From IMG/VR virus record IMGVR_UViG_3300045922_000326, positions 1 through 24,590 of that record: a stretch of 24,590 nt of DNA. One strand, given 5' to 3'. Origin of the DNA: a virus. Of the stretch, positions 1,696-24,461 are shown in pieces (within the stretch, counting starts at the first letter, position 1; every line of letters starts with the position of its first letter). A model generated the notes under the pieces. That model was not told the origin of the DNA, ran no database searches, and saw only the letters and a program-made list of their open reading frames with translations. The position numbers were made by a program, and so were the translations under genes.

Positions 1696-1705
1696 AGGAG
1701 GCCAT

Positions 1706-2077: not shown

Positions 2078-2079
2078 GT

Positions 2080-2472: not shown

Positions 2473-2509
2473 GGGCGTTGTAAAATGCACCGGGAGAAGG
2501 GGATATGAA

Positions 2510-2653: not shown

Positions 2654-2684
2654 ACTATTGACCTAGTAAGGAAGGAAGGAAAAT

Positions 2685-3056: not shown

Positions 3057-3057
3057 C

Positions 3058-4383: not shown

Positions 4384-4386
4384 TAT

Positions 4387-5526: not shown

Positions 5527-5527
5527 T

Positions 5528-5956: not shown

Positions 5957-5974
5957 AAACCGCCTTCCTATGGC

Positions 5975-7250: not shown

Positions 7251-7258
7251 GTAAGCTC

Positions 7259-7992: not shown

Positions 7993-8006
7993 AAATGGTC
8001 CTCCCA

Positions 8007-10214: not shown

Positions 10215-10582
10215 TACTCGGCGACCTCTACCAAAAAAGCATGAGCTTCTTTTCCGGCCATTCGACCTTTTTTCATGGTCTCTAGTCCTTTGTAGTTGAT
10301 TCGCACATAGGAGCCGGGAGACACTTGAGACAACTGGTTCTTTAGTGAACCTGTACTGTTTAAGATAGCAATGCTGCCATCGTTTAGACGAACCTTGTAG
10401 TCACTACGTGTTTCGTCGAAGTTATTGGGGATTGTGCCTTCGTAAATGCCCTCCGCAACTACTCCAGTGATGCCGCTTGCAGCCAGTTCCTTGGCTCGAA
10501 TGAACTTGACGTTTCCGCCAGTTCCAGTAGTAGATTCTTCTCCACCACCTAGTACAGAACGAAATGTTCTTGATTCGCTCAT
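10214..10582 (-). CDS. OB-fold-like protein, putative single-stranded DNA-binding
   Basis: 122 aa. VKFIRAKELAASGITGVVAEG, then IPNNFDETRSDYKVRLNDGS, GSLKNQLSQVSPGSYVRINY and HAFLVEV is the layout of a small phage family with an OB-like beta-barrel, usually next to replication genes. The Gly/Ser/Thr-rich N-terminus (GGGEESTTGTGG) looks flexible. AAGGAG lies 6 nt before the ATG, inside the end of the upstream gene. It is directly upstream of, and overlaps, the polymerase gene, so an ssDNA-binding or polymerase-accessory role is likely. This is inferred from context and fold resemblance; no acidic C-terminal tip typical of SSB is obvious. Confidence 0.6.
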   Translation of the reverse strand: MSESRTFRSVLGGGEESTTGTGGNVKFIRAKELAASGITGVVAEGIYEGTIPNNFDETRSDYKVRLNDGSIAILNSTGSLKNQLSQVSPGSYVRINYKGLETMKKGRMAGKEAHAFLVEVAE

Positions 10583-10585
10583 TTA

Positions 10586-11113
10586 TTACTCCTTAGTTTG
10601 TGCCCTGTTGGGCGTTGTTGGTTTTCCATTATATTCTAATATATCAGCCGGCGCCTTGTCAAGCACTATAAGCTTTGGTTTGACTAATTGTCCCTTAACC
10701 GGCCTATTGTCCGTACCAGACTGCGTTTCAACGTAATACATTAACATACTTAGGCAGGCTAGTGCGTGGCCTAAATGATGCACGCCGGATTCTGGGTCTA
10801 AGTTTTCTCCTTCTTGGAAGGCGGTCACATGTCGCATGCACGATGCGGTCAGGCGAGTCCACTCCATTCCTTCTCTAAAATTATCTCTTTCGTATTTTGA
10901 TGCCCCAAACATAAAGGCTTTGGCGCACGAGTCTAGAGCCGCCTTAGGTATAAGGCTAAGGTCTGGCTTATTGCCGTCGTATTTTAGTCCTTTATTCTTT
11001 GACGTCTTTGCGATTTCTTGTGCGCTGGCCGCTTCGCACTCAATGCTGCAAAAACTCATGTCCGATGGAATGCTTACTACTTTACACTGCTTGCATTTTC
11101 TTGTACCGCTCAT
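10586..11113 (-). CDS. Zinc-ribbon plus dATP/dGTP diphosphohydrolase-like (MazG-fold) protein
   Basis: 175 aa. The start is placed at the ATG at 11113, preceded by AAAGGAGG which overlaps the upstream stop. An N-terminal CxxC...CxxxC (C7, C10, C22, C26) looks like a zinc ribbon. From ~44, LKYDGNKPDLSLIPKAAL, FMFGASKYERDNFREGMEW and PESGVHHLGHALACLSML match the dATP/dGTP diphosphohydrolase N-terminal family (formerly DUF5664), an all-alpha MazG-like NTP pyrophosphatase. Such enzymes adjust dNTP pools during phage DNA synthesis. It lies among primase, exonuclease and polymerase genes. The catalytic assignment is from the family; the zinc-ribbon fusion is seen in sequence. Confidence 0.75.
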   Translation of the reverse strand: MSGTRKCKQCKVVSIPSDMSFCSIECEAASAQEIAKTSKNKGLKYDGNKPDLSLIPKAALDSCAKAFMFGASKYERDNFREGMEWTRLTASCMRHVTAFQEGENLDPESGVHHLGHALACLSMLMYYVETQSGTDNRPVKGQLVKPKLIVLDKAPADILEYNGKPTTPNRAQTKE

Positions 11114-11123
11114 TGAACCTCCT

Positions 11124-11921
11124 TTAAACGTCGAGTATCTCATAGTCGTCGCCAAAGTCAAGCTCTTTGTTATATGTTTTTCTCCATACGCCAGTTCTCA
11201 TGCATTCCTTATAAGTTTGCAAGGCGTCAGAGACCATGCGGTCCCCAATGTGTCTAGATTCTTTTGAAAGTTTGAAAACTTGGCAGTCTGCCTCTCTTTT
11301 TGCCACGGCAATAAAATAGAAGTCAAAAGGCTTTTTATAAAACTGCTCTGCAACTGTGCAATAAAGTGCGGCGCTTAGTTGGTACTTGTACTTGTCTATC
11401 GTAAGTCTAAAACTATCGCGGTCCACCGAATATCCGGAAGTTTTAAGGTCGGCAATATAGCCCTTTTCTACGTTCACGTAGTCGCAACGAATTTTTACGT
11501 TTACGCCTTGAAGACTTGTAAATATGCTTTGCTCTGCTACTCCTCCGCTAATTAGCCCGACTGCGGCTTTTCTTCTTTTAAATGCAGCAATCCAATACTT
11601 GCAGCGTTCTAGTTGCGGCTTACTCATACAGATTCGGCCCTTATTTTGTGTCTTAAATTCTTCCCAGGCCGTACCTTGCTTCCTTAGTCCGTCAAAGAAT
11701 GCAAATTCTTTATCGACGATGTCGGGCTCTAGTATGAGCGCATGAAATAATGTGCCTTCGTCAAAGAAACTTCCCGACACGTCTACTTTATTGCCTAAGA
11801 TGCGCTCCTCATAAAACTTGTGAGGGTCTTCGAGAAGAAGCTTTAAGCTTGAACTAGAAAGGTGCGTCTTATCAGCGTGGTACTGCGAGTTTGTGCACTC
11901 AACTATGCCTTCTAATTTCAT
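11124..11921 (-). CDS. RecE-like PD-(D/E)XK exonuclease (exodeoxyribonuclease VIII type)
   Basis: 265 aa. YHADKTHLSSSSLKLLLEDP near the N-terminus, then GTLFHALILEP (H60), VAEQSIF (E130), IRCDYVN (D147), ADLKTSG (D158, K160) and YKYQLSAALY (Y180, Q181) reproduce the RecE C-terminal nuclease motif order, including the H, E, D, DxK and QxxxY elements. RecE degrades the 5' strand at double-strand ends to make 3' tails for annealing. A partner annealase is not recognised in the window. AAAGGGAG precedes the ATG, which overlaps the primase stop (ATGA). Confidence 0.85.
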   Translation of the reverse strand: MKLEGIVECTNSQYHADKTHLSSSSLKLLLEDPHKFYEERILGNKVDVSGSFFDEGTLFHALILEPDIVDKEFAFFDGLRKQGTAWEEFKTQNKGRICMSKPQLERCKYWIAAFKRRKAAVGLISGGVAEQSIFTSLQGVNVKIRCDYVNVEKGYIADLKTSGYSVDRDSFRLTIDKYKYQLSAALYCTVAEQFYKKPFDFYFIAVAKREADCQVFKLSKESRHIGDRMVSDALQTYKECMRTGVWRKTYNKELDFGDDYEILDV

Positions 11922-12766
11922 GCGTCTCCCTTTACTCGGGCGGCGGCTAGGGCTTCTTCAAGCGGAAAACCTCTAGTGTCTGATAAGTTGTTGTAGGTCC
12001 TAAGCGTATATTTTTCTCTCATTTCTTGAGTAAAGTTGCTCTCGTCCATTCTCTTGCCTAGATAATAAAATAGGGCGTTCCGTCCGCAAATGTCGTGCTT
12101 CTCCATGAAGTCGTCTGGAAAATTGCTAGCCTCAATTAGAACCGAACTTACAAAATTCTTTCGCTGGTCCGCCGTAAAGCTTATACTTCTAGGGGCTAAA
12201 GGGGGAGGAAGCAGTGGTTCAAGCTCTGCAAGGTGTACTCTATTTCCTAAATAACGCAACTCTTGCATTTTGTTTGTTTCTGGCCTAATTACTCCTGGAA
12301 GTCTGCTCAATCTGCTTGGATTCTTGCATGTCTTGTCTGCTTGCGGAAACATCTTCAGTAATCTTAGTGCAAGGTTCTTATATTCTACGGAATTGGGCAG
12401 AGGTTCTGTGAGAGATATAATAAAATGCAGCGACTTGCCGCCACTGTATACCACGGACGACACTGGAATCTTGTTCATAATGTAAGAAGACTGCTCGGAA
12501 AGCGGTACGTTGTCTAGTTCTAAAAGAAAATTTCTGTAACACACAATATTTGCGTCGCTACGTCTTGGCAAGTACTCACTGTGCCAGTCCTTGTGAGGAT
12601 TAAGGTCCTTGGTTGGGTGTAGCGCATTTATGCAGAAAAAAATGTCGTCGGAGCGCGGGGTGTGCGACACTTTGTAGCCATGGGGCGAAGCCGTAAAGCA
12701 GGTAGCCTGACCTGGGTCAAATAGAAGGCTCAAAAACTTAGATTGCACTTCCTGTCTCTTAGTCAT
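11918..12766 (-). CDS. Archaeo-eukaryotic-type primase (PrimPol-like)
   Basis: 282 aa. FLLELDN (E83, D85) is the acidic metal-binding motif I, SGGKSLHF (S112, H114) is motif II, and NPSRLSRLPGVIRP supplies the conserved basic motif after motif III. The intervening text (SEQSSYIMNKIPVSSVVYSG) also matches phage AEP proteins. It should lay primers for the PolA polymerase. The SF3 helicase with which such primases are often fused is encoded separately, more than 6.5 kb upstream in the direction of transcription. GGAGG lies 5 nt before the ATG, which overlaps the upstream stop (ATGA). Confidence 0.8.
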   Translation of the reverse strand: MTKRQEVQSKFLSLLFDPGQATCFTASPHGYKVSHTPRSDDIFFCINALHPTKDLNPHKDWHSEYLPRRSDANIVCYRNFLLELDNVPLSEQSSYIMNKIPVSSVVYSGGKSLHFIISLTEPLPNSVEYKNLALRLLKMFPQADKTCKNPSRLSRLPGVIRPETNKMQELRYLGNRVHLAELEPLLPPPLAPRSISFTADQRKNFVSSVLIEASNFPDDFMEKHDICGRNALFYYLGKRMDESNFTQEMREKYTLRTYNNLSDTRGFPLEEALAAARVKGDA

Positions 12767-13362
12767 TTAAGCCTCCGAAATTGTCTAGCGAATCCTACGC
12801 CAGCGGTTCTGTGGTCCCAGACCGGCAAACCTTTTATGTCTTCTGGATAAATTTTCCATCCAATCCATAGTCGGCGTCGGCCAAAAATGCCAAAGTTTCG
12901 TTGCACTCTTATGCATGAGTAGAGTCCGTGCCACGCAAAGTACGCGAAGTCTTCGTTATCCTCGTCATACAGTTCTACAGCATTTTTATCGGGAGTTGCA
13001 ATGAAACGAACATTCTTAGGCTTAATTATAAAACTTAGGTAAGGCACATAGCGTGCATTATTGGACGGATTTCTTACACATTCAGAGTAAATTATTCGAA
13101 GCCATAAGGGCCATTTTGGATTGCCGTAGTGTCCTATGCCTTCTTCTTCATTAGACCATAGCCACATGAATGAAGGAGAAAATGCGCGAACAATTCTGCC
13201 TTCGTACTTTGATGATTCTCGCATTTCGTAGGCTCCAGTGATTGCACATATTGGCACAAGTATGTAGCCAAGCACGTCTAAAATTAAAGCTAAAATCATG
13301 TACAGAAGCCAGCTTATTGGGGCCCAAACGTACATCCATATTGGAATCGGAGCATTGCTCAT
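12763..13362 (-). CDS. Membrane protein of the replication operon (DUF7338-like, tentative)
   Basis: 199 aa from the ATG at 13362, chosen because GGAGGA lies 6 nt upstream; 26 more codons are open before it but lack such a site. Two close hydrophobic helices (MYVWAPISWLLYMILALILD and VLGYILVPICAITG) are followed by a Trp/Arg-rich cytoplasmic domain with RIIYSECVRNPSNNARY and RRRLWIGWKIYPED. The layout recalls a phage family I know as DUF7338. Function unknown; a membrane anchor for replication or a host-takeover role are guesses. It overlaps the primase start by 4 nt. Confidence 0.7.
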   Translation of the reverse strand: MSNAPIPIWMYVWAPISWLLYMILALILDVLGYILVPICAITGAYEMRESSKYEGRIVRAFSPSFMWLWSNEEEGIGHYGNPKWPLWLRIIYSECVRNPSNNARYVPYLSFIIKPKNVRFIATPDKNAVELYDEDNEDFAYFAWHGLYSCIRVQRNFGIFGRRRLWIGWKIYPEDIKGLPVWDHRTAGVGFARQFRRLK

Positions 13363-13448
13363 ACAAAATCCTCCACGTCTTGAGTCTAAATTGGCCTTTT
13401 CTACGAGTAAATTTAAATATGAAAAACTACCTAAAGGCATGTGAAAAG

Positions 13449-14084
13449 TTAGAAAATCTCGTCTACAACACCAAGTTCCAGCAACTGTTCAGCAGTAAAA
13501 TATGAATCAACGTGCATTCCTTTCTTTAGCCAGAATTGTGAAGGCTTATTCGTAAGTTGAGCCATGGTGTCGGCCCATGCGCGCTCTTCTCGCTCGGCCT
13601 GCGCAACTGCAGCCTTATTAGAAGCGTGTCGGCCCTCTATAAGGTAAGAGGCCTCATGGTGCATGAACCATGCTCTGCGAGAAAGTTTTCGCCTATCTCC
13701 ACAGGCAAGCAAGAGCGTGGCCGCGCTCATTATTGCGCCATATCCTTCGGTCACAATGTAGCACGGCGAACGCTCTATGCGGCCCAATATGGCTAGAGCC
13801 TCGTACACGGAACCGCCAAGGCTGTGCACTTTTAAGGTTACAGTGCTCTTAGACTGTCTTTCCATTTCGTTTAAGGCAGCGTCTACAAAGTCAAATAGAG
13901 GCCGTTCAATATCTCCGGTTACTTGTATAATGCGGTCACGTAAGTTTATGCCCCGGTCGAAGCATAGGTCTAGGTGCAAAGACTCTGCATTAACTCTGGC
14001 TTCTGGAGACTTGTTAACCGCGTTGGCTACTATGGTTTTCTTGGGACGTTTGCTGCCCTTCTTAAATCTTATCTTCGTATGCAT
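13449..14084 (-). CDS. ClpP-like serine protease
   Basis: 211 aa. HSLGGSVYEALAILG matches the ClpP SPGG-like substrate loop, GAIMSAATLLLACGDRR holds the nucleophile (S120), and AWFMHHEAS holds the His (H142). The C-terminus YFTAEQLLELGVVDEIF is the typical ClpP ending that includes the triad-proximal region. A basic N-terminal ~20 residues (KIRFKKGSKRPKK) is extra. Phage ClpP-like proteases usually mature the capsid, but this one sits in the replication operon. GGGAGAG lies 7 nt before the ATG. It overlaps the small secreted gene upstream by 16 nt. A signal-peptide-peptidase-like enzyme is the alternative. Confidence 0.85.
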   Translation of the reverse strand: MHTKIRFKKGSKRPKKTIVANAVNKSPEARVNAESLHLDLCFDRGINLRDRIIQVTGDIERPLFDFVDAALNEMERQSKSTVTLKVHSLGGSVYEALAILGRIERSPCYIVTEGYGAIMSAATLLLACGDRRKLSRRAWFMHHEASYLIEGRHASNKAAVAQAEREERAWADTMAQLTNKPSQFWLKKGMHVDSYFTAEQLLELGVVDEIF

Positions 14085-14236
14085 ACGCCAACTCTCCCAG
14101 ACCTAGCCGCCTCGCACGCTTCTAAGGTGTGGTAGAAGCACTGGGTCAGGAAAGATTGTTGCAAGCACCACGGGGCTGAACCGATGCGATTTTCGGCAGA
14201 GGCCGAACTTAAAAAAATAAATAGCAATAAGCTCAC
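14069..14236 (-). CDS. Small secreted Cys-rich protein, DUF3551-like
   Basis: 55 aa. A GTG start with AAGGAGG 5 nt upstream overlaps the upstream stop (GTGA). MSLLLFIFLSSASA is a short signal peptide ending in an A-x-A site. The mature part begins ENRIGSAPWCLQQ and continues FYHTLEACEAARSGR, ending VCIRR, with four cysteines (C24, C33, C41, C52). The PWC...C...(F/L)E-C-A---GR-G-C pattern resembles DUF3551 periplasmic proteins, best known to me from Rhizobiales. It would act outside the cytoplasm, oddly inside a replication operon. Function unknown. Confidence 0.65.
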   Translation of the reverse strand: MSLLLFIFLSSASAENRIGSAPWCLQQSFLTQCFYHTLEACEAARSGRVGVCIRR

Positions 14237-14598
14237 TTGGTCCTCCTTTTTTCTTCAATGTAAGCTTTGCACGCCTTTAGCTGTTCGTCAAGCCTTATCT
14301 TATCATTTAGTGCTCTATTTAGTCCAGAAGGATGTGGTAGTGTAAAGTGTTCGAGCCCTTGCTTTTTTAAATAATTGTGTGCGGCCTTACCGAGCGCAAC
14401 TATAACTATTTCTGGTATTCTAAGAATTTTGTGGGCGTACTTGTGGGATGCGTTTACGAGCAGTGTCTCATTTATGCGAAGGCCAAGCTTTGGAGTCCAC
14501 CTTATGATTTGCTTTTGTGACCTCGTGCCTACGAATGCAAAGAAGCGGTGTCTGTTTTTGTTTGACGGCCTGTCTCCTACGAATATGACGTACTTCAT
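14233..14598 (-). CDS. Uracil-DNA-glycosylase-superfamily-like protein
   Basis: 121 aa. FVGDRPSNKN near the N-terminus corresponds to the (G)E-x-PG/DxPS loop of family 4/5 uracil-DNA glycosylases. LLVNAS, IVIVALGKAAHNYLKK and LPHPSGLNR correspond to the central strand and the HPS(x)xNR loop that enters the DNA minor groove. It is shorter than most UDGs (about 190-220 aa), so it is a minimal phage version. It would remove uracil or act in base repair or host control. AAAGGATACACC precedes the ATG. It is the first gene of the replication operon in the direction of transcription. Confidence 0.65.
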   Translation of the reverse strand: MKYVIFVGDRPSNKNRHRFFAFVGTRSQKQIIRWTPKLGLRINETLLVNASHKYAHKILRIPEIVIVALGKAAHNYLKKQGLEHFTLPHPSGLNRALNDKIRLDEQLKACKAYIEEKRRTK

Positions 14599-14634
14599 GG
14601 TGTATCCTTTTTATTTTCTTTTTCTTCGTCCTAA

Positions 14635-15972
14635 TTAGCCATCTGCCAAAAATTTACCAAAATCATCGTTTCCAAAATGGCCTTTAGTTATTTTCAAAAT
14701 CAACCTTGGCGTTAGCTTTTTTGGAACTTCGATTGATTTAACAAATTCTTTTACCCCAAACTCGCAAGCGCCAGTGATTGTCCTATAGGCGGCAATTGCG
14801 TCATCTATTGTGACCTCTTGGTCTGGGTTATCCTTCCATGACTCAAATTCTGAAACGTCTCTTCCAGAAACCTTGTAACGCATATCCTCAATAGCCTTTT
14901 TAATCGTCTCGCCATGGGAGAATGTGTTATTGCGCTTAACAACATAGCTTATGTTTTTCTGTAGGAAATCTTCGCATTCAAAAACCTCTATTTCACCTAT
15001 CTTTTTCTGTGACTTTAGCTTTTTGCAGATTCCGTCAGCGTAAACGTAGCCACGCCTTAGCCACTCTTCAAATGAGGGCTCAATTTCTTTTGGGATTTCC
15101 CGAGCATGAGAAGTGTTTGATTTTTCCTCAACATTGACAGGGCATCCCTTAAACACTGCTGTCGAGTAGTCCATGAGTTTTTTAATTAAAACTTTTGATG
15201 AAAGCACCATCGCGTAGGCAGAAATAAAAAGCTGGACATTAGAGCTGCCCCTAGCCTCGACTCTGGAATTGTCCCAGGCTTCGACACTTGAATTGTGCCA
15301 GGCTTCGACACTTGAATTGTGCCAGGCCACGACGCTGGAATTGTCCCAGGCTTCGACACTTGAACTGTGCCAGGCTTCGACACTTGAGTTGCCCCTAGCC
15401 TCGACGCTGGAATTGCCCCTAGACTCGACGCTGGAATTGTCCCAGGCTTCGACACTTGAACTGTGCCAGGCTTCGACACTTGAGTTGCCCCTAGCCTCGA
15501 CGCTGGAATTGCCCCTAGACTCGACGCTGGAATTGCCTAAGGCGACGACCTTAGAGCTGCCTCTAGCCTTGACTCTGGAATTGTCCCAGGCGACGACGCT
15601 GGAATTGTCCCAGGCTTCGACTCTGGAATTGTCCCAGGCCACGACCTTAGAGCTGTCCCTAGCCTCGACGCTGGAATTGTCCCTAGCCTCGACGCTGGAA
15701 TTGCCCCTAGCCTCGACGCTGGAATTGCTCCAGGTGACGACCTTAGAGCTGCCCCTAGCCTCGACGCTGGAATTGTCCCTAGCCTCAACTCTGGAATTGC
15801 CCAAGGCCACGACCTTAGAGCTGCCCTTAGCCTCGACGCTGGAATTGTCCCAGTCCTTTTTTACATAAAGCCAGTCTGAATTTTCCGACCTGATTTCGAT
15901 TGTCGTGAACTCTTCAAAACTGTCTGGCAAAGCATCTAAATCAGATTGTTTTTTGATTACTACAGTTTTCAT
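14635..15972 (-). CDS. Repeat protein with 25 eight-residue beta-solenoid-like units and conserved C-terminal domain
   Basis: 445 aa; ATG at 15972 overlaps the stop of the next gene upstream (ATGA), which decides it over a TTG six bases earlier. Residues ~43-242 are 25 tandem units of the type NSSVEARG, alternating with SSKVVAWD-type units, probably a regular beta-solenoid with Val inside and Ser/Asn turns. The C-terminal ~200 residues form a conserved-looking domain (SFEEWLRRGYVYADGICKKL, FSHGETIKKAIEDMRYKV, TIDDAIAAYRTITGACEFGV, TKGHFGNDDFGKFL) that occurs with repeat arrays in other phages and bacteria. No signal peptide. Function unknown. The array carries an exact 96-nt tandem duplication. 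Confidence 0.8.
   Translation of the reverse strand: MKTVVIKKQSDLDALPDSFEEFTTIEIRSENSDWLYVKKDWDNSSVEAKGSSKVVALGNSRVEARDNSSVEARGSSKVVTWSNSSVEARGNSSVEARDNSSVEARDSSKVVAWDNSRVEAWDNSSVVAWDNSRVKARGSSKVVALGNSSVESRGNSSVEARGNSSVEAWHSSSVEAWDNSSVESRGNSSVEARGNSSVEAWHSSSVEAWDNSSVVAWHNSSVEAWHNSSVEAWDNSRVEARGSSNVQLFISAYAMVLSSKVLIKKLMDYSTAVFKGCPVNVEEKSNTSHAREIPKEIEPSFEEWLRRGYVYADGICKKLKSQKKIGEIEVFECEDFLQKNISYVVKRNNTFSHGETIKKAIEDMRYKVSGRDVSEFESWKDNPDQEVTIDDAIAAYRTITGACEFGVKEFVKSIEVPKKLTPRLILKITKGHFGNDDFGKFLADG
15247..15846 (-). repeat. 24-bp tandem repeat array (25 units)
   Basis: Twenty-five in-frame 24-bp units encode the eight-residue repeats. Common unit codons read AAT-TCC-AGC-GTC-GAG-GC. Because 24 is a multiple of three and the unit lacks stop codons in several frames, long antisense open frames arise over this stretch. 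Two adjacent 96-bp blocks (15344-15439 and 15440-15535) are identical base for base, showing recent duplication by slippage or unequal recombination. Confidence 0.95.
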
Positions 15973-16745
15973 TTGCAACCCCTAATTAGTTCCAAAAGTT
16001 TATTAGCAAATTTGCTGTATTCTTTTTCAGCAGCAGCAGCAGCAGCAGCATGGGCAGCAGCATAAGTAGCAGTAGTAGCATCAGCATAAGCAGCATAAGT
16101 AGCAGCACGAGCATCATAAGCAGCAGCATCAGCAGCAGCATAGGCAGCATAAGCAGCAGCATCAGCAGCAGCATCAGCAGCAGCATCAGCATAAACAGCA
16201 GCAGCAGCATCAGCATAAGCATAAGCAGCAGCATAAGTAGCAGCAGCAGCATAAGTAGCAGCAGCATAAGCAGTAGCATCAGCATAAGCAGCAGCAGCAG
16301 CATAAGCAGCACGAGCTTTTTTTAGCGCATCTAAATTCAAAACATCTTTACGAAGTTCAACTAAAACGCCGTCAATAGCTGCCAAAGACCTTTTGTTTTT
16401 CGTGTTTGCTCTTGCAGACTCGACAATAAAAACAAGCATCGGTATCTTAATTTTATTTAAGTCTGCGCCAACATTGATTGCATCCAGAAATAGCGACGGA
16501 AAGTTTTTGGCCTCATCATTTGGTAGACCCTCAAAAATTCTATCTTCTAATCTTGCTAGCCACTTAGGTATGCCAAGCTCGGTCTCGTATGCTGAATGGT
16601 CGTCGCTATGAATTGTACATCCCACGGCACAACCTTTACCGTTCTCCCAGTACTTGCCTTTGATAATTTCATCGGCAGTTTTATGAGCCAATACTCTGTC
16701 TAAATATTTTTGTTTAACTTTTTCGTCATTGTGAAATGCTTTCAC
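15969..16745 (-). CDS. Alanine-rich repeat protein with conserved N-terminal domain
   Basis: 258 aa from a GTG at 16745, chosen because AAAGGAG lies 5 nt upstream and the resulting N-terminus (KAFHNDEKVKQKYLDRVLAH) is that of a phage and bacterial family I recognise. The N-terminal ~120 residues include KYWENGKGCAVGCTIHSDDH, YETELGIPKWLARLEDRIFE and NFPSLFLDAINVGAD. The next ~100 are almost only Ala, Tyr, Asp and Thr (AAYAD/AAATY runs), probably a long Ala helix, ending in a charged tail (EKEYSKFANKLLELIRG). No signal peptide. It is coupled to the 25-repeat gene by an ATGA overlap. Function unknown. Confidence 0.8.
   Translation of the reverse strand: MKAFHNDEKVKQKYLDRVLAHKTADEIIKGKYWENGKGCAVGCTIHSDDHSAYETELGIPKWLARLEDRIFEGLPNDEAKNFPSLFLDAINVGADLNKIKIPMLVFIVESARANTKNKRSLAAIDGVLVELRKDVLNLDALKKARAAYAAAAAYADATAYAAATYAAAATYAAAYAYADAAAAVYADAAADAAADAAAYAAYAAADAAAYDARAATYAAYADATTATYAAAHAAAAAAAEKEYSKFANKLLELIRGCK
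16030..16312 (-). repeat. GCA-rich (alanine-codon) imperfect repeat
   Basis: On the + strand this stretch is built from GCA, GCAGCATAA and GCATCA blocks with irregular spacing. On the coding strand these become GCT-GCT-TAT-GCT-GAT-type codons, giving the Ala-rich part of the gene at 15969. It is a slippage-prone simple-sequence tract without a single fixed period, and it opens spurious frames on both strands. Confidence 0.9.
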
Positions 16746-16791
16746 TATTTCTCCTTTTTTCAAAATTGCTTTTTAAAGTCTAGGTCATTAA

Positions 16792-17004
16792 TTATTGCAA
16801 ATACTCATTTCCATTAGTAAAATCAATTATTTGAACGACTTCGACATAATATTTAAAAAAATCAGGAGGGACGTGCACCTGTGTACCTTTAGCAGACTCA
16901 ATTACTTTTTTGTGCGGATAATCCATTACAACTGTCCAAACTTTTCCAGTTTCTACGTGCTTCACTAGTTGACCTTCTGAAGTTTCGTGACTCATGTATT
17001 TCAT
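16792..17004 (-). CDS. Small unknown protein
   Basis: 70 aa; AAGGAGG lies 5 nt before the ATG. The layout is a small beta domain: GQLVKHVETGKVWTVVMDYP, KKVIESAKGTQVHVPPDFF, then YYVEVVQII. This is compatible with an SH3- or Tudor-like barrel, inferred from the strand pattern only. No signal peptide or metal motif. It lies between a possible lipoprotein gene (10 nt upstream) and the Ala-rich gene (46 nt downstream). Confidence 0.65.
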   Translation of the reverse strand: MKYMSHETSEGQLVKHVETGKVWTVVMDYPHKKVIESAKGTQVHVPPDFFKYYVEVVQIIDFTNGNEYLQ

Positions 17005-17014
17005 GTTTTCCTCC

Positions 17015-17290
17015 TTAAAATTCTGCGCTTATGTCTAGTGTAGTTTGTCCGGGCTGAAAACGCAAACTAAATGTTCGATTAATCCTGATTTGAGCCACTC
17101 CGCGACTCTGGGCTAACGCAAGGGCTGGGACTGCATATAAGACCCACTCTCCAGCATACTTTACAGCGCGTACCTGCGTTTTCTTTACGTACTGCCTGAT
17201 GGGCGGTGTATGGGCATAGTAGGCGCGGGCTGCCGGGCTGCAAGCATCTTTTGTACTTAAGCATGCCGTAAGAAGTAAGGCTTCAAGCAC
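17015..17290 (-). CDS. Possible small lipoprotein or membrane protein
   Basis: 91 aa from a GTG that lies in the last codons of the preceding 41-residue gene. The N-terminus MLEALLLTACLST contains LTAC, which fits a lipobox, but the signal is very short and lacks positive charge, so lipidation is uncertain. A second apolar segment (EWVLYAVPALALAQ) is followed by a strand-rich end (VAQIRINRTFSLRFQPG). GAGG about 9 nt upstream is a weak ribosome site, so it may rely on coupling. The reading frame continues upstream to a TGA without a better start. Function unknown. Confidence 0.55.
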   Translation of the reverse strand: MLEALLLTACLSTKDACSPAARAYYAHTPPIRQYVKKTQVRAVKYAGEWVLYAVPALALAQSRGVAQIRINRTFSLRFQPGQTTLDISAEF

Positions 17291-17408
17291 GAGTCTGCAC
17301 CTCGGCTTTATGTGCGCGTTCTGTCAATTGCCAATTGTGAAAGTTTTTTTTAAGATAGGTTTTGAGTGTGAGCAGCCGGGTGCTTGGTACGTTTTGGGCA
17401 AACTTCAT
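17283..17408 (-). CDS. Small basic peptide (41 aa)
   Basis: 41 aa, with AGGAGG 8 nt before the ATG, overlapping the upstream stop (TAGGAGG). The sequence is basic and helical (TRLLTLKTYLKKNFHNWQLT then ERAHKAEV). Its end overlaps the GTG of the next gene by 8 nt, fitting the tight coupling of this operon and filling an otherwise empty 130-nt gap. No family recognised. The strong ribosome site is the main support. Confidence 0.55.
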   Translation of the reverse strand: MKFAQNVPSTRLLTLKTYLKKNFHNWQLTERAHKAEVQTRA

Positions 17409-17420
17409 AGGCTTGACCTC

Positions 17421-17693
17421 CTAATGCACTGCAGCCGAATTGCCGCGCCGCCCAAGGTCTAAATATAGCTCTATGTCAAATATCCACCACTGCTTTTCGT
17501 CTCCGTGGAATACTCTGTATGTTGCTGGCTCTTTTGAGAGCAGTACAGGATGGCCTGTACCGGCAAGAAGCCAGTGCTTTGCGCGGAAGCGATAGTAACG
17601 TGAGTTTTTTTCTAGGACCTCAACAACTTCAATAAAGACTTCACTATTGCTTTGGTGAATATAAAATTCTCCCGCCTGAAAGTGCGAACTCAT
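17421..17693 (-). CDS. Small unknown protein
   Basis: 90 aa; ATG overlaps the protease stop (ATGA) and has GGGGGA upstream. Beta-rich with many aromatics: FQAGEFYIHQ, VFIEVVEVLEKNSRYYRFR and KQWWIFDIELYLDL. The strand-turn-strand layout recalls the small single-barrel proteins common in phage accessory operons. No signal peptide, membrane helix or metal motif. Function unknown. Confidence 0.65.
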   Translation of the reverse strand: MSSHFQAGEFYIHQSNSEVFIEVVEVLEKNSRYYRFRAKHWLLAGTGHPVLLSKEPATYRVFHGDEKQWWIFDIELYLDLGRRGNSAAVH

Positions 17694-18367
17694 TTTGTCC
17701 CCCTAATTAAAAACTTGGCAACGGCCTTTCCTGTGTAGATTGCAGTAGCCTGTGACGTGCCGCTCATGGTGTAGCCGCCGCCTTTCTTTTTCTTACCAGA
17801 TTCTAGCACATTAACTCGTGTGCCTATATTTGAGTAAAGCAGGTCATACGCGCCGACAACAACTATGCGCGGGTCTGCACAGGCTGGGTAAATTATGCAG
17901 CCCCGGTCTAAGTTTATCTTATTGTTCCCAGAAGCTGCGCTTATGCGGGTCCCGTTGTTTAAAATTTGTTTTAAGTAGTGCACTTCCATGGGGTCCTCTC
18001 CAGTGCCCGCAATGCTAAGATTAATAAAATCAAACTTTTCTAGATTTGCAGTCATTAGGGCTGAAATGTAAGGCGTAAATCTGGTCCAAGTCTTAGAGTC
18101 GTCGAATGCCTTATACATGACTATACAAGCGCCAGACTTAGGAAGCTCTCGGGCTATGAGACTGGCCACGTTTGTGCCGTGTCCAATATTGTCTCGCAGA
18201 CCCGTGCCCGTAAAGTCTTTATGCCCATATTTGCACAGCTTAAGATTTTCAGGGCTGTAGTGCACGCCGGAGTCTATCACAAGAATTCGAACCTCGGCAC
18301 GTGCGGCAAATGTACCAAAAATGTACGCAAAAAGTACTAAAAATGTCCACAGTATGGCACGCTTCAC
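17690..18367 (-). CDS. Secreted subtilisin-like serine protease (S8 family)
   Basis: 225 aa. Signal peptide: MKRA then a ~17-residue apolar core ending AARA-E. The triad is complete: Asp32 in VIDSGV, His63 in GHGTNVA, Ser205 in SGTSQATA, with the oxyanion Asn148 in ASGNN. At ~200 mature residues it is compact, without a visible pro-domain, so maturation or inhibition must differ from classical subtilisins. It would act in the periplasm or outside the cell; possible roles are lysis, surface remodelling or exclusion of other phages (all inference). The GTG start overlaps the upstream stop (GTGA), with AAAGGGG before it. Confidence 0.88.
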   Translation of the reverse strand: MKRAILWTFLVLFAYIFGTFAARAEVRILVIDSGVHYSPENLKLCKYGHKDFTGTGLRDNIGHGTNVASLIARELPKSGACIVMYKAFDDSKTWTRFTPYISALMTANLEKFDFINLSIAGTGEDPMEVHYLKQILNNGTRISAASGNNKINLDRGCIIYPACADPRIVVVGAYDLLYSNIGTRVNVLESGKKKKGGGYTMSGTSQATAIYTGKAVAKFLIRGTK

Positions 18368-18783
18368 GGGCGCCCCTTTCCTAGCTGCTTTAACGCATCT
18401 TCATAAATAACTTGCGCTAGTAAATGAACGACCTCGTCAAAAGAAATTTCGTGCGCAAGTATGAAGCGAGAGCCGAAACTATCGTCGACCCCAAATACAG
18501 TAAAGCCGCCGGGACGCTCACCAAAGACTTCGTACGTAATTCCAAGGCAGGTTAACGTGGTGTAATTTTGCTCAAAGTGAGCCCGCACGAGGGCTTCTAG
18601 AGGATTAATGCGCACGTCTTTGCTCTCCTGTGTGTGCACGTCTTTGCTCGCCAGTGCGGGCACCTGTATGCTATCGTACATGCGCCGTATGTGACTATTG
18701 GCCGGGTCATTTAAATACTGGTCCAGCTCTTCTTTCGTGATGGCAATTGTGCCACGCTTTGGGTTTCTATATGGAAGGCTCAT
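18364..18783 (-). CDS. Unknown protein
   Basis: 139 aa. The ATG at 18783 is chosen because it overlaps the upstream stop (ATGA); an open extension of 23 codons lies in the end of the upstream gene and is Arg/Ser-rich, unlike coding sequence here. The N-terminal part (ITKEELDQYLNDPANSHIRR) is helical. The C-terminal part has LTCLGITYEVFGERPGGFTV and FDEVVHLLAQVIYEDALKQL. No signal peptide. It precedes the secreted protease and overlaps its start by 4 nt. No family recognised. Confidence 0.65.
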   Translation of the reverse strand: MSLPYRNPKRGTIAITKEELDQYLNDPANSHIRRMYDSIQVPALASKDVHTQESKDVRINPLEALVRAHFEQNYTTLTCLGITYEVFGERPGGFTVFGVDDSFGSRFILAHEISFDEVVHLLAQVIYEDALKQLGKGRP

Positions 18784-19184
18784 TCGAAGTCCCCGTGTTT
18801 CCATGCGTCGTAGGCTGCGTCGACTGCAACGGCTCGTGGTCCGCTGCGCCATTCGTAGTCTACGTCTGATAAATTTTTGTTACAGTATTCGGCCAATGCA
18901 TCGTCGAGGTCCAAGTCTTCTAGGCCAATGTATTCAAACGCAAAAGACTTGCTTGAGTCGTTTGGGTGCACGACGTAGGCAGAGCCGTCTAGTATTAGAG
19001 TTGCGCTATCGTCTTGGCGCTCAAAATAGCAAGAGCCTTCCACGTCTATGACGTAGCCGTAGTCTGAGGGTAGGCCTAAGATTTCTAGCGCCTTTTCGTA
19101 GCCGGGACCAAGGTCCAGCTCGGCCTTTACAGTCATGGTTCGATAATCAATTCTAGTAACTACTAGCTTTGGTCGGTCTTTCAT
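18780..19184 (-). CDS. Unknown acidic protein, first gene of the accessory operon
   Basis: 134 aa with TAGGAGA before the ATG. Acidic (many Asp and Glu), with alternating beta and helical stretches (KLVVTRIDYRTMTVKAELDL, YEKALEILGLPSDYGYVIDV, LEDLDLDDALAEYCNKNLSD). No signal peptide, membrane helix or recognisable motif. A sigma-70-like promoter 32-60 nt upstream makes it the promoter-proximal gene of the leftward set that contains the subtilase. Function unknown. Confidence 0.7.
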   Translation of the reverse strand: MKDRPKLVVTRIDYRTMTVKAELDLGPGYEKALEILGLPSDYGYVIDVEGSCYFERQDDSATLILDGSAYVVHPNDSSKSFAFEYIGLEDLDLDDALAEYCNKNLSDVDYEWRSGPRAVAVDAAYDAWKHGDFE

Positions 19185-19215
19185 AAACTCTCCTAGGTTT
19201 TGTGCATTTTTTTAA

Positions 19216-19244
19216 AGTTTAATGCAGCGACATTAGGAAGTCAA
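19216..19244 (-). promoter_or_regulatory. Sigma-70-like promoter for the accessory operon
   Basis: On the minus strand TTGACT (19239-19244) and TAAACT (19216-19221) are separated by exactly 17 nt, with the ATG of the next gene 32 nt beyond the -10. It lies in the only sizeable gap (125 nt) before that operon. The rest of the gap is GC-rich and shows no clear terminator. Confidence 0.6.
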
Positions 19245-19309
19245 GCAATGGACGATTTTGTCTTGTTTTGAAACTGGGCCGTGAGGGCGGCCAGGGCGCG
19301 GGCCGTGCC

Positions 19310-20839
19310 TCAATCGCTTCCCTTCTTTGCCAAGACGTGCACAGTCTTCGATAGCTCGCCGGTCTTTAAGCGCACTCCAGAAAAGCCGCGCACTCTAGCG
19401 GTTTCCCCGCCCAATCGCCTTGATTGAACGCCAGGAATTTTTGTTAGGCGTCGCACAAGGTGTACCATTCTGTATTCGGACCTTGCCCAATTATTTGCAG
19501 AAAAGCGCATGAAGGCGTTTAGAAGTTCGCTTCTACTGACAAAATAATCGGGTCCGAACTCTAGTTCAGACTGCAAAAACTCATCTAGCGAGTTGGTCTC
19601 GTCTGACGTACACGAGGCCTCAATGTCTTCGGCCATATCTGGTGGGACGATGAGATTCATGCCTGTTGGGCACTGCGACGCGTAGGCAACTTTGCAAGAA
19701 TATAGGAAATGACCAATCTCGGCCTGAAGGCCTGGGGCGAACTTGCTATCTCCTAGCTCGTTATTTTTTAGCGGATAAACTCGGATGAGTAGCAATCGTG
19801 TTCTCTCTGCTGCCTCATTTATGTCTATCGAAGGATTGAAATTTGAGGAAACGATTAACTTTGCGTAAATGCGCGCGCTAAACGCGGTCTGAAACTTTTC
19901 ATTGATTTCTACGGTGTCGCCGCCAGTTAAGCTTTTGATTCGATTGTGCCTGATAATTTGCGTATTATTGCAATCCATGTAAATTGCAAATTGCTTTCCG
20001 TAGGCCGAGCCGTAAAAAAACGGGCTATCGGCGAAAGTGTCTCCGAGGGAAAGCACGGCATGACGTCCGTAGAAGTCTGCTATTGCGTTAATTACCGAGC
20101 TCTTTCCGTCGTTGCCGCTTCCTTGCAGCCACAGGACTTGGCGGGTCTCATTAGAGGGCTCAAATATGGACCAAACGTAGGCTTTGAAAGTTTCAGGATG
20201 GCTTAGGCGGCATAGGAACTGGTCCCAGGTCGGATGCGTGCCGGGCTTGATAAGACTTGAGTCTAGTACTCTAAATGCAGGTCCCCTATCGAAGGCTAGT
20301 TGCGGGACCTTGCCGTGAATGAGCGTGTCTAGGTCCGAGCAAAATATTTTGTAGAGACTTTGGGCCAGGTCAGTGGCCGTAAGCTCGGCCAGGTCTGGTT
20401 CCTCTTTTAAGGCAGAGTTTAGCCGTGCAAGGAGAGAGCCACTATTGACTAGAATTTCGGTGAAACGCTGGGGCGATAGTTCCCCTCGGCGCAAGATTTC
20501 GCCCCGCTCGTCTCCTGCAAATAGGGCTACTGATAGGCGCTCGTCGGCTCTGTAAAGTCTTAGCGCTGGCTTTAGACTCTTGTAGGCTCGCTCTAGGGCC
20601 GCCCTTCGGTCAACTTTTCGGTGGTGGGATGCAGAGGCCTTGGGCTTGGGCGCCGGGCCAGAGCGCAGCTCGCGAATGCTTTGGGCAACTTGGGCGGCCT
20701 TTTCTGGCGTAAGGTCGAACTTGTAGAGCAGGAGGGTCTCAAACTCGGATTGGGGCCAAGATTTGCCGGAAGAGGCGTCAAAGTAGGCTTTACTTGGCTC
20801 TAAGTATGTGATATTCCTTATGTATTCGGTTAAATGCAC
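19310..20839 (-). CDS. SF3 (D5/P4-alpha type) replicative helicase
   Basis: 509 aa. Walker A GSGNDGKS (240-247), Walker B FAIYMD (D289) and sensor VSSNFNP (N333), with IKSLTGGDTVEINEKF between them, are the SF3 D5-like signature. The hexameric ring unwinds DNA at the fork; its usual fused primase is missing here and is probably the separate AEP gene at 11918. The start is set at the GTG at 20839 with GGAG 8 nt upstream. An in-frame TTG at 20900-20902 is part of a promoter -35, so it cannot be the start. The C-terminal ~110 residues are a basic winged-helix-like tail that may bind the origin. Confidence 0.9.
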   Translation of the reverse strand: MHLTEYIRNITYLEPSKAYFDASSGKSWPQSEFETLLLYKFDLTPEKAAQVAQSIRELRSGPAPKPKASASHHRKVDRRAALERAYKSLKPALRLYRADERLSVALFAGDERGEILRRGELSPQRFTEILVNSGSLLARLNSALKEEPDLAELTATDLAQSLYKIFCSDLDTLIHGKVPQLAFDRGPAFRVLDSSLIKPGTHPTWDQFLCRLSHPETFKAYVWSIFEPSNETRQVLWLQGSGNDGKSSVINAIADFYGRHAVLSLGDTFADSPFFYGSAYGKQFAIYMDCNNTQIIRHNRIKSLTGGDTVEINEKFQTAFSARIYAKLIVSSNFNPSIDINEAAERTRLLLIRVYPLKNNELGDSKFAPGLQAEIGHFLYSCKVAYASQCPTGMNLIVPPDMAEDIEASCTSDETNSLDEFLQSELEFGPDYFVSRSELLNAFMRFSANNWARSEYRMVHLVRRLTKIPGVQSRRLGGETARVRGFSGVRLKTGELSKTVHVLAKKGSD

Positions 20840-20873
20840 GGCGATAACTCCATTTTGTAGTGGTTTAGGTCTT

Positions 20874-20902
20874 ATTGTAGCACGACCAGCGGATGCAGGC
20901 AA
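20874..20902 (-). promoter_or_regulatory. Sigma-70-like promoter of the helicase gene, extended -10
   Basis: On the minus strand TTGCCT (20897-20902), 17 nt, then TACAAT (20874-20879), preceded by TGC to give an extended -10 (TGnTACAAT). Transcription would begin near 20867, leaving a leader of about 28 nt before the GTG. Two CGTCCAA-family heptamers (20912-20918 and 20924-20930) lie just upstream and may act as an operator or iterons. Confidence 0.7.
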
Positions 20903-22069: not shown

Positions 22070-22130
22070 GTTCTCGCCTTTCTGGCCGATAATTGGCCGA
22101 AAATATTTACACTTTTTAATAAACAAAATC

Positions 22131-22580
22131 TTACCAAGTCACAGTGCCGTCACCGTGCACTTGAAACTTACACTTTTGCTGGTCCGTAGTTTGGTACAGG
22201 CCGGGCCCAAGAACGTGCAAGAATCTATTGCCCGAATGCTCAAAGTATACCAAAATTTGCCCCGTGCTCAATCTTAGTAAGACCTCATCGTAGCCGCCGC
22301 TTGGTCCGCACGGGTCTATAATTTCGATGATTGAGTCTTGACCATCTGTTCCATCGCGCCCATCTGCCCCATCGCGCCCATCTGTTCCATCGCGCCCATC
22401 TGTTCCATCGCGCCCATCTGGCACAACAATTGACGTACCGCCACAAGTTATGCGCGTCCCTTCTGGCACTGTCTTGACTTCACACGGATTAATTGCTTCA
22501 AGCCTTGCATCTTGGCACGCTGCAAGCAGTACCGCCACGCCCGCCATTGCCGCTAGTTTAAAATTACGTAAACTGCTCAT
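22131..22580 (-). CDS. Collagen-like lipoprotein
   Basis: 149 aa. Signal with lipobox LLAAC, so C22 should be lipidated; the +2 residue Gln fits outer-membrane sorting. Residues ~56-82 are nine Gly-X-Y triplets (GRD, GTD, GAD, GQD), a short Pro-poor collagen-like stretch. The C-terminal domain (IIEIIDPCGPSGGYDEVLLR, LSTGQILVYFEHSGNRFLHV, DQQKCKFQVHGDGT) is beta-rich with paired Cys. It is likely surface-exposed or periplasmic. AAGGAAGGGGAA precedes the ATG, and a FliA-type promoter lies 48 nt upstream. A role in altering the host surface is inference. Confidence 0.8.
   Translation of the reverse strand: MSSLRNFKLAAMAGVAVLLAACQDARLEAINPCEVKTVPEGTRITCGGTSIVVPDGRDGTDGRDGTDGRDGADGRDGTDGQDSIIEIIDPCGPSGGYDEVLLRLSTGQILVYFEHSGNRFLHVLGPGLYQTTDQQKCKFQVHGDGTVTW
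22342..22420 (-). repeat. 18-bp repeat coding the Gly-X-Y stretch
   Basis: About four copies of an 18-bp unit (+ strand CGCGCCCATCTGTTCCAT, one copy with CCCC) encode the GRDGTD repeats of the lipoprotein. Being a multiple of three, copy-number changes would lengthen or shorten the collagen-like stalk without breaking the frame. Confidence 0.9.
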
Positions 22581-22598: not shown

Positions 22599-22790
22599 TT
22601 ACTTATCGTTTGCCGTCGAAAAAACTTTAGACCTTTTTTTTAAAAATTTAAGCAAGTACAGCTTGTGCACTCTTTGGTCCAAATCAAATTCTAATTCCTT
22701 CCTTTTCGAACTTAAAATTTCTGCAATCATAATCGCCCAAAGCGTTAGCAGTGTGCCTAATATGACGCCGTTTGAAAAGTCCGCATTCAT
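22599..22790 (-). CDS. Small membrane protein with basic C-terminus
   Basis: 63 aa; ATG overlaps the transglycosylase stop (ATGA) with GGAGG 7 nt upstream. A single N-terminal helix (GVILGTLLTLWAIMIAEIL) is followed by a Lys/Arg-rich tail (SSKRKELEFDLDQRVHKLYL then FLKKRSKVF). Its last codons contain the FliA-type promoter at 22603-22629. No lipobox. It could assist the neighbouring transglycosylase in lysis, but no family was recognised. Confidence 0.65.
   Translation of the reverse strand: MNADFSNGVILGTLLTLWAIMIAEILSSKRKELEFDLDQRVHKLYLLKFLKKRSKVFSTANDK
22603..22629 (-). promoter_or_regulatory. FliA (sigma-28)-type promoter for the lipoprotein gene
   Basis: TAAAGTTT (22622-22629), 11 nt, then AACGATAA (22603-22610) on the minus strand, against the consensus TAAAGTTT-N11-GCCGATAA: the -35 is perfect and the -10 matches six of eight. 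It sits inside the end of the preceding gene, and the lipoprotein ATG is 48 nt from the AAAGTTT element. Two further copies lie upstream in the same operon set. Confidence 0.65.
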
Positions 22791-23215
22791 TGACCGCCCT
22801 CCATTTCCCTTAGTTTTTGCTCTAACTTTTCCGCGTACGCCGCCTTGCGCGCCGGCGTGCGAGAGTGATATCGACCTTTCCAGTGTGGGTCAATGTCTTT
22901 GAATTTCTTGTGTCCTCTTAAAATCTTTGCGGCACACATTGCATTTCCTTCGAGAGTAAACACGTCGTAAGCCTTACATGTAGTGTGCCAATGTACGCTG
23001 TTTATTTGAAATACCCCAATGTCTTCGCTGCCGTCACTATTACGCTTTGGTCCCAAAAACCTTCCCCCACTGCTTTCCAGATGAGCGATTGCAATAAGTT
23101 CCATTGCGTCGACGTCATAGGCTTTCGCTGCCCTTTCAACGGCACTACTTAGCCCCGAGCTTTGAGCTTCCGCCGTCAAGCTTAAACTTAGTATTAAAAG
23201 GCTAAGCAGACTCAT
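22787..23215 (-). CDS. Secreted lytic transglycosylase (SLT domain)
   Basis: 142 aa. Signal peptide (LLSLLILSLSLTAEA). The SLT fold is shown by IAIAHLESSGGRF with the catalytic Glu47, EDIGVFQINSVHW (the GxxQIN motif), and RYHSRTPARKAAYAEKLEQK at the C-terminus. Such enzymes cleave the MurNAc-GlcNAc bond. With a signal peptide it can act in the periplasm without a holin, unlike the M15 enzyme on the other strand. It overlaps the upstream gene by 14 nt and the downstream membrane gene by 4 nt. It is expressed from the FliA-type promoter at 23529 if that is active. Confidence 0.85.
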   Translation of the reverse strand: MSLLSLLILSLSLTAEAQSSGLSSAVERAAKAYDVDAMELIAIAHLESSGGRFLGPKRNSDGSEDIGVFQINSVHWHTTCKAYDVFTLEGNAMCAAKILRGHKKFKDIDPHWKGRYHSRTPARKAAYAEKLEQKLREMEGGQ

Positions 23216-23504
23216 TTGTTAAGCTCTCGATTAAGGCCTCAAGTTCGTCTGTTCTAACATATCTGCCTGACTCAATTTCTGTATAGTCCTCAAGTAAGTT
23301 GCTAATGTAGTCTGCCATGCCAACTTGGTAAGCAGTCGGGTCAATGGACCTTAACGCATCTGCCACGTCATAATCATATCCCGCAATATTAACCCTATCG
23401 TAACAGTCTCTAAGCATATCACTGTATAGTTCTTCGAACTCTTCATCTGACCAGATTTCTAAACTGCTTTCAATAACCTCAATTTGTGATTTTGAAAATT
23501 TCAT
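23202..23504 (-). CDS. Acidic unknown protein
   Basis: 100 aa, strongly acidic (IWSDEEFEELYSDMLRDCYD, EDYTEIESGRYVRTDELEAL), mostly helical, with YDYDVADALRSIDPTAYQVG and ADYIS in the middle. This layout occurs in phage hypothetical proteins but has no assigned function that I know of. AAAGGAG lies 6 nt before the ATG. A near-perfect FliA-type promoter is 50 nt upstream, making this the first gene of that transcript. Its charge would allow DNA mimicry or host-protein binding; that is speculation. Confidence 0.65.
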   Translation of the reverse strand: MKFSKSQIEVIESSLEIWSDEEFEELYSDMLRDCYDRVNIAGYDYDVADALRSIDPTAYQVGMADYISNLLEDYTEIESGRYVRTDELEALIESLTNESA

Positions 23505-23528
23505 GCACTTCTCCTTTTTATAGTTTAC

Positions 23529-23555
23529 TTATCGGCAAATCTTACAAAAACTTTA
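23529..23555 (-). promoter_or_regulatory. Perfect FliA (sigma-28) consensus promoter
   Basis: TAAAGTTT (23548-23555), exactly 11 nt, GCCGATAA (23529-23536) on the minus strand: 16 of 16 consensus bases with ideal spacing, in a 101-nt gap with no gene. The first downstream ATG is at 23504, 50 nt from the AAAGTTT element, with its own ribosome site in between. FliA is the flagellar sigma factor; its core consensus is well established in enterobacteria and similar in many motile bacteria. Confidence 0.85.
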
Positions 23556-23605
23556 CTGCTTTTTATGCGTTAAGTAATTCTTGTTTGACTAATTTTACTG
23601 GCGTT

Positions 23606-23995
23606 TTATTTTGACATTAGGTTTGTCGCATATTGCGCCAATTTCTCGCCTTCCCTAAGGTCTTTTTTATAGTCGATAAACAATTGCGAGCCCGCCGTTA
23701 CGTCAACTAAGGTATAAAAATACATGACCGTGCGCTCTGCGTGTTTGCCTAACTTATATCCAACATTTGGCACGTCCGAGTGATTAAATAGCTCGCCGTC
23801 TCCAAGGACTAGGCAGTCTCGACGCTCGTCGAAGGTAAAAACGTAGTCCCTTAATTCGGTTGAGGCTACTGTCCTCGTGTCTTGTTCGCTTAACACTAGC
23901 AGCTCTGCGCTAAATAAAATTTTGTTACCCTGTAAGTCCGTAGCGGCGTAAAGTCCGCGCCCGTATTGTTCGCACTGTTTTATAAAATATTGCAT
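23606..23995 (-). CDS. SET-domain protein (putative lysine methyltransferase)
   Basis: 129 aa, a minimal SET domain. Residues 12-17 GRGLYA are the N-terminal SET motif. GELFNHSDVPNVGY contains NHSxxPN (71-77), the SAM-binding pseudoknot. SQLFIDY ends in the catalytic (E/Q)LxxDY (D108, Y109). VMYFYTLVDVTAGS is the strand before it. No post-SET cysteines. SET enzymes methylate protein lysines; targets in bacteria are mostly unknown. It follows the 24005 gene with AGGGGG before the ATG, in the transcript from the FliA-type promoter at 24434. A phage SET protein is uncommon; the substrate cannot be deduced. Confidence 0.78.
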   Translation of the reverse strand: MQYFIKQCEQYGRGLYAATDLQGNKILFSAELLVLSEQDTRTVASTELRDYVFTFDERRDCLVLGDGELFNHSDVPNVGYKLGKHAERTVMYFYTLVDVTAGSQLFIDYKKDLREGEKLAQYATNLMSK

Positions 23996-24004
23996 TTTTG
24001 CCCC

Positions 24005-24409
24005 CTATTTATTAAGCTCATTTAAAGTAAATTGAATTTGGTCAACGACAAACTGCCCCGTCTTAAGATAGTGTGCTGCCTGACCCGCAATCTCAATATA
24101 AAATAGTTTCGCAATTATGTCTGAACCTATAGCTGCAGCCTGAATGCGGCCCATCTCAATTTCTTGTTCTGGACTAAAGTTAAGGCCAGTGCGCAAGTGC
24201 AAAGCGTCGTGCACGGCCCTGAAGGCCCAATTTATAGAAGCTTCCCCGTAAATAGTGCCTTCACTGGCGCCGGACCAAACTACGAGCCCCGGCTGACTCC
24301 ACAATTCGTTCTCTGTGCTGGGCGCTTTGTCCGACACTCTATAATTTAAGCCCTTAGCCTGTTTTAGAACTTCCTGATTTAGCGCTCTCTGAAGGTCTTT
24401 AGCTAACAT
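24005..24409 (-). CDS. Unknown protein with an HxxxH motif
   Basis: 134 aa. The ATG at 24409 has TAGGAGA just upstream; an open extension of 22 codons lies over the promoter and the previous gene, so it is rejected. VVWSGASEGTIYGEASINWA, then FRAVHDALHLRTGLNF with HDALH, and FSPEQEIEMGRIQAAA. The two His and following Glu could bind a metal, but the spacing fits no family I can name; a similar R-x-x-HDxxH layout occurs in phage hypothetical proteins. No signal peptide. First gene after the FliA-type promoter, followed by the SET gene. Confidence 0.7.
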   Translation of the reverse strand: MLAKDLQRALNQEVLKQAKGLNYRVSDKAPSTENELWSQPGLVVWSGASEGTIYGEASINWAFRAVHDALHLRTGLNFSPEQEIEMGRIQAAAIGSDIIAKLFYIEIAGQAAHYLKTGQFVVDQIQFTLNELNK

Positions 24410-24433
24410 ATTATCTCCTACGCAATGCCTTTC

Positions 24434-24461
24434 ATATCGGCTGCCCCTTACAAAAACTTTA
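24434..24461 (-). promoter_or_regulatory. FliA (sigma-28)-type promoter upstream of the SET operon
   Basis: TAAAGTTT (24454-24461), 12 nt, GCCGATAT (24434-24441) on the minus strand: 15 of 16 bases of the FliA consensus with one extra spacer base. The -35 overlaps the stop codon of the partial gene upstream. The next ATG is 51 nt from the AAAGTTT element. The first 14 bases of the element (AAAGTTTTTGTAAG) are identical to the copy at 23529-23555. Confidence 0.75.

Follow-up and report, generated by a model that had tools for sequence, protein, structure and literature searches.

Gene layout of the window

The DNA analysed here (the window, G000 in our collection) is an IMG/VR record of 24,590 bases of phage DNA with a G+C content of 45%. 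Plus-strand genes, among them those for a tail fibre, an endolysin-type peptidase and a holin, occupy positions 1-6457 (PHROGs), and minus-strand genes begin at the right end and continue to 6439, with small genes first and replication-type genes after them (PHROGs, Pfam). This arrangement suggests that two blocks converge here, a rightward late one and a leftward one that is presumed to be early. As genes for terminase, portal and capsid are absent from the window's 24,590 bases, we take it to be a genome fragment. The features of its leftward block, listed from right to left, are as follows:

24434..24461, minus strand: putative sigma-28-type promoter 1, TAAAGTTT-N12-GCCGATAT, 15/16 consensus positions, -10 element ending 24 nt upstream of the ATG at 24409
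24005..24409, minus strand: first gene after promoter 1, phrog_7806 (PHROGs E 3.4e-13 on the longer ORF)
23606..23995, minus strand: SET-domain protein, second gene of the promoter 1 unit (PF00856 E 6e-11)
23529..23555, minus strand: putative sigma-28-type promoter 2, TAAAGTTT-N11-GCCGATAA, 16/16, 24 nt upstream of the ATG at 23504
23202..23504, minus strand: gene after promoter 2, phrog_9294 (PHROGs)
22787..23215, minus strand: transglycosylase (SLT)-like protein with a hydrophobic N terminus (PF01464 E 1.2e-4, over cut-off)
22599..22790, minus strand: small ORF encoding a single hydrophobic stretch; promoter 3 is formed by its last codons
22603..22629, minus strand: putative sigma-28-type promoter 3, TAAAGTTT-N11-AACGATAA, 14/16, 22 nt upstream of the ATG at 22580; overlaps the 3' end of the ORF 22599-22790
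22131..22580, minus strand: gene after promoter 3, with a collagen-like repeat and an apparent lipobox (LAAC) (PF01391 E 3.6e-4, below cut-off)
22090..22116, minus strand: possible degenerate fourth site, AAAAAGTG-N11-GGCCAATT, 12/16, 20 nt upstream of the ATG at 22069
6439..20902, minus strand: rest of the leftward block (PHROGs, Pfam), collinear in the relative G105

The start of the phrog_7806 gene at 24409 was picked by its ribosome site, and the lipobox of the 22131..22580 protein was read by eye. The remainder of the block (6439..20902) encodes a primase/helicase, a subtilase, a head-maturation-type protease, a primase-like protein, a RecE-type exonuclease, a MazG-like protein, a family A DNA polymerase and a spanin-like protein.

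Sigma-28-type sites in the leftward block

FliA (sigma-28) is the host sigma factor that controls the flagellum. Our reference was the consensus of the FliA class of proteobacteria, TAAAGTTT-N11-GCCGATAA with a spacer of 11 (10-12). The original prediction for this locus had placed an exact minus-strand match to FliA promoters at 23529-23555 and near-copies at 24434-24461 and 22603-22629; all three are present as listed above, the spacer of promoter 1 being one base longer. The spacing that it gave between the initial A of AAAGTTT and the ATG, namely 50 (23555), 51 (24461) and 48 nt (22629), was likewise recovered. Each of the three ATGs is preceded by a Shine-Dalgarno or AGGAG-like ribosome site, and the 22-24 nt between the -10 element and the ATG leave room for a short leader containing it. 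The -35 boxes read TAAAG, as in many proteobacteria, and no good sigma-70 promoter was found at any of the three sites.

When both strands of the window were scored against the FliA consensus, these three sites ranked highest, and the next best (13/16) lay on the opposite strand. That such matches are unlikely to arise by chance, another claim made at the outset, agrees with a second-order Markov null, under which 0.03 sites of 14/16 or better are expected per window against the three observed; any such site occurred in 9 of 300 simulated windows and an exact one in none. Likewise, 635 kb of sequence from 44 phage loci not selected by motif contained a single site of this quality. For the degenerate fourth site, a chance match is still possible. 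An inverted repeat, GGCCAATTATCGGCC (22070-22116), lies 5' of the gene at 22069 and overlaps this degenerate match.

Conservation in a distant relative

Relatives of the window were obtained only through its SET-domain gene; searches of viral and genome collections with the primase and the first early gene turned up no usable close relatives. One of those obtained was G105 (IMGVR_UViG_3300045918_000348, 57,271 bases), found through the window's SET gene and a distant copy of it, which has the whole early block plus genes for terminase, portal and capsid; its terminase and capsid themselves gave remote matches or none. About 20 window proteins match G105 in collinear order at 28-60% identity (DNA polymerase 43%, primase 40%, exonuclease 50%, SET protein 60%), and the SET gene of G105 is downstream of a sigma-28 site of its own. 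The SLT-like protein of the window is 35% identical to its homologue in G105 and 38% to that in a further contig, L329.

G105 has five distinct sites of 14/16 or better and one of 13/16, all on the early strand and within the first 4.4 kb, whereas the null gives 0.175 sites of at least 14/16 for the whole 57 kb. Three of its sites correspond in position to those of the window: the one at 2365, just 5' of the SET gene, to promoter 1; the one at 2865, just 3' of the SET gene, to promoter 2; and the one at 4396, overlapping the end of the transglycosylase (SLT) gene, to promoter 3. The boxes in G105 read TTAAGTTT...ACCGATAA or close variants, and the spacers are unrelated to those of the window. 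In L329, a 13/16 site (9269) is again found where the SLT gene ends. No convincing sigma-28-type site was found in the other carriers of SET homologues (L330-L332 and L334-L337), and the single-gene relatives L003/G001 are also without sites. Because several single-gene relatives lack them, the sites are confined to some lineages rather than universal.

Recurrence in other phages

Viral contigs were scanned for exact TAAAGTTT-Nx-GCCGATAA, which gave at least 120 stretches, from which duplicates were then removed. Among the matches listed there were at least 4 exact sites with a spacer of 10, 75 with a spacer of 11 and 46 with a spacer of 12, of which 0, 49 and 26, respectively, were intergenic and 0, 44 and 18 lay 5-120 nt upstream of a start. 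The spacing-10 class, all of whose sites among the matches listed fall within genes, serves as an internal control for chance. Some of these phages carry whole sets of sites. For example, G029 (L124 458-5037) has 11, all on the same strand in a stretch of 5 kb, with almost every small gene having one, mostly 29-38 nt upstream of an ATG, and G014, G016, G019 and G031 have 9 or 10 each, against 0-2 sites for reversed-pattern controls on whole records. The 19 bacterial genomes with an exact site, on the other hand, have 1-7 sites at up to one mismatch per 2-8 Mb. Of the 71 sites in 11 phages with several sites each, 49 (69%) are intergenic, compared with a background of 12%, and 52 (73%) are located just 5' of a start, compared with 10% for random positions; gene calls in this count were crude, an error that would, if anything, blur the enrichment.

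The original prediction had also proposed that sites would cluster upstream of orthologous genes in relatives. This is seen at the three positions in G105 and, in addition, in an independent pair of related phages (G017 and G072), where all eight G017 sites have a counterpart 5' of the orthologous gene. Identity within this pair is 98% for the -35 element, 95% for the -10 element, 59% for the spacer and 69% for the 20 nt upstream, the identity of the boxes being partly built in, as sites were chosen by consensus; the one-to-one positions and the kept subtype (TCAAG, TTAAG or TAAAG) are not built in.

Among 216 distinct phage sigma-28-type sites, 31 (14%) have a sigma-70 promoter scoring at least 10/12 woven into them, such that TTGACA falls inside the sigma-28 spacer and GCCGATAA inside the sigma-70 spacer; shuffling the spacers and downstream bases gave an expectation of 0.7%. 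These interleaved sites (in L019, L046, L047, L048, L073, L090, L104, L142 and others) look like double promoters which either holoenzyme might use. The window's three sites are not of this type.

Two phages that attack the flagellum were also searched: 7-7-1 has no site, and Chi has only two sites with two mismatches, one of them inside an annotated CDS. A PAPS-reductase-like gene of G029 was rejected as a marker of relatives, as its own relatives have no sites; the gene probably moves on its own. One G029 site has TAAAGTTTTTGTAA in common with window promoters 1 and 2, and a search with this extended motif returned G029 as the sole viral contig.

Sigma factors, polymerases and the host

No protein of the window or of G105 gave a hit over cut-off to sigma region 2 or 4, and none of the 18 other site-bearing records did so over the curated cut-off; one 85-aa sigma region-4 hit was found in G072. 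PHROGs scans of the window and G105 proteins revealed no RNA polymerase, and the profile for T7-type enzymes (PF00940) had no hit in either, but it gave none in the control genomes of that search either.

The host was not found, there being no close relative of the window among the genomes searched. The best match of the primase to a named phage is to a Silvanigrella phage at 30%, and the exonuclease matches the same phage at about 30%. Megablast against named phages gave no match for the window or for the G029 and G019 regions, and nothing but a tRNA match for G031. The primase had no match in 395 genomes of one phylum, a search run without a positive control.

Discussion

In the usual view, the early promoters of a phage compete for the housekeeping sigma factor. 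We consider it probable that the three elements of the window are real sigma-28-type promoters that head an early operon and are read by host RNA polymerase carrying the flagellar sigma factor. What was computed is the motif, its position, its synteny and conservation in relatives, and the absence of a detectable sigma gene; promoter activity, the use of a host sigma factor, the early nature of the block and the link with motility are what we infer from it. The central claim of the original prediction, that FliA-type promoters drive phage genes, thus gains support at the sequence level from synteny, from recurrence in other phages and from the lack of any sigma gene found. Motif and position alone do not prove which sigma factor acts. 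Given that G105 has no detectable sigma factor, the likely reader is host RNA polymerase with host sigma-28.

According to the mechanism that we propose, once phage DNA has entered the cell, the three sites would be engaged by host RNA polymerase whose sigma subunit is the flagellar one, FliA or another member of its family, with transcription starting about 7 nt after each -10 element. The resulting short-leader mRNAs would cover the SET/phrog_7806 pair, the transglycosylase unit and the lipoprotein unit, possibly with read-through into the replication genes. As the phage brings no sigma factor, its first genes would be expressed most strongly where sigma-28 is free, that is, in motile cells or in the attack-like phase of a predator, and, because the sites stand at the front of the block presumed to be early, the first phage transcripts would depend on free sigma-28.

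A narrower form of this explanation, which we regard as rather unlikely, has a Bdellovibrio-like predator as the host, with FliA acting as a general attack-phase sigma factor and the sites being ordinary promoters. In Bdellovibrio, FliA runs the attack-phase programme from promoters of the form TTAAG-N16-CCGATA (PMC3627812), to which the boxes of G105 are close, and in both systems sigma-28-type boxes serve, or in the phage would serve, a large gene set not confined to flagella. The Silvanigrella-borne phage matched by the primase and exonuclease also fits a predator. However, Bdellovibrio attack-phase promoters drive host genes, the protein matches are remote and the TAAAG of the window sites is that of many proteobacteria. 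In addition, the Bdellovibrio phage phi1422 has no set of sigma-28-type sites, so a Bdellovibrio host stays a lead and is not confirmed.

It is improbable that the motif is an operator for a phage repressor or activator, with transcription carried out by sigma-70. While its repetition at a fixed distance and the 14% of sites elsewhere that are threaded through a near-perfect sigma-70 promoter would suit an operator, both boxes equal the sigma-28 consensus, the spacer is 11-12 and almost never 10, the motif is common to unrelated phages, and it precedes starts by 20-40 nt, as a promoter would; moreover, the window sites lack a good sigma-70 promoter. About equally improbable is a phage-encoded FliA-type sigma factor from an unsequenced part of the genome. 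The window is partial and lacks most late genes, so a sigma gene could lie outside it, but G105, complete for the early block and with its terminase, portal and capsid genes present, gave no sigma region 2 or 4 hit, and the other site-bearing records yielded nothing beyond the short region-4 match in G072. Finally, chance matches in upstream regions that are A+T-rich, a composition with which the sigma-28 boxes share words, are hardly credible and are contradicted at the sequence level by the excess over expectation in both the window and G105, by syntenic conservation with diverged spacers and by the spacer-10 control.

If the sites are indeed host-read sigma-28 promoters, they would resemble the FliA flagellar promoters of proteobacteria in boxes, spacer and distance to the gene but serve phage early genes where those serve flagellar and chemotaxis genes, and at a far greater density (11 sites in 5 kb in G029 against the few per bacterial genome given above). 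Pseudomonas phage YuA reportedly has sigma-54-type promoters; as in our case, the promoters fit an alternative sigma factor of the host and no phage sigma gene accompanies them, but here the sigma factor would be a different one serving early genes, and the pattern recurs across many phages. Other phages encode their own sigma factors, for example T4 gp55, SPO1 gp28 and the sporulation-type phage sigmas. In these, too, a set of phage genes has a promoter class of its own, whereas no sigma gene was found in the window or G105 and the sites match a host-type consensus. The use of other host sigma factors by phages is already known, and the novelty would lie in an early gene set fitted with sigma-28 promoters. 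The original prediction knew of no phage with a FliA-controlled operon set, and we likewise found no phage running its genes from FliA promoters in the published full-text literature available under open licences.

The presence of the same promoters in a distant relative and in many other phages suggests that some phages may tie infection to swimming cells. We lean slightly towards a broader reading, in which many unrelated phages, independently of one another, equipped their early genes with promoters for the flagellar sigma factor, some of them interleaved sigma-70/sigma-28, so that take-over would be gated by, or insured against, the motile state. If true, infection by such phages would depend on the motility programme of the host, which would make it easy to predict the times and the cells in which they win. 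It would also give a clue to the hosts of thousands of uncultured phage contigs, namely that they are flagellated and have free FliA.

Other features of the presumed early block

The SET-domain (protein methyltransferase-like) gene at 23606-23995 is among the first genes of the phage and has homologues in at least 10 other viral contigs. A protein with an apparent lipobox and a collagen-like repeat is encoded both in the window (22131-22580) and in G105 (L339 12695-13063), at different positions of the early block. Within the same block, a subtilase-like gene with a hydrophobic N terminus (17690-18367) is kept in G105 (37%). Low-complexity repeat proteins, NSSVEAR-type and alanine/tyrosine-rich, occupy the middle of the window's early block (14635-16763), and G105 (L339 8814-10000), also in mid early block, encodes serine/glycine-rich ones.
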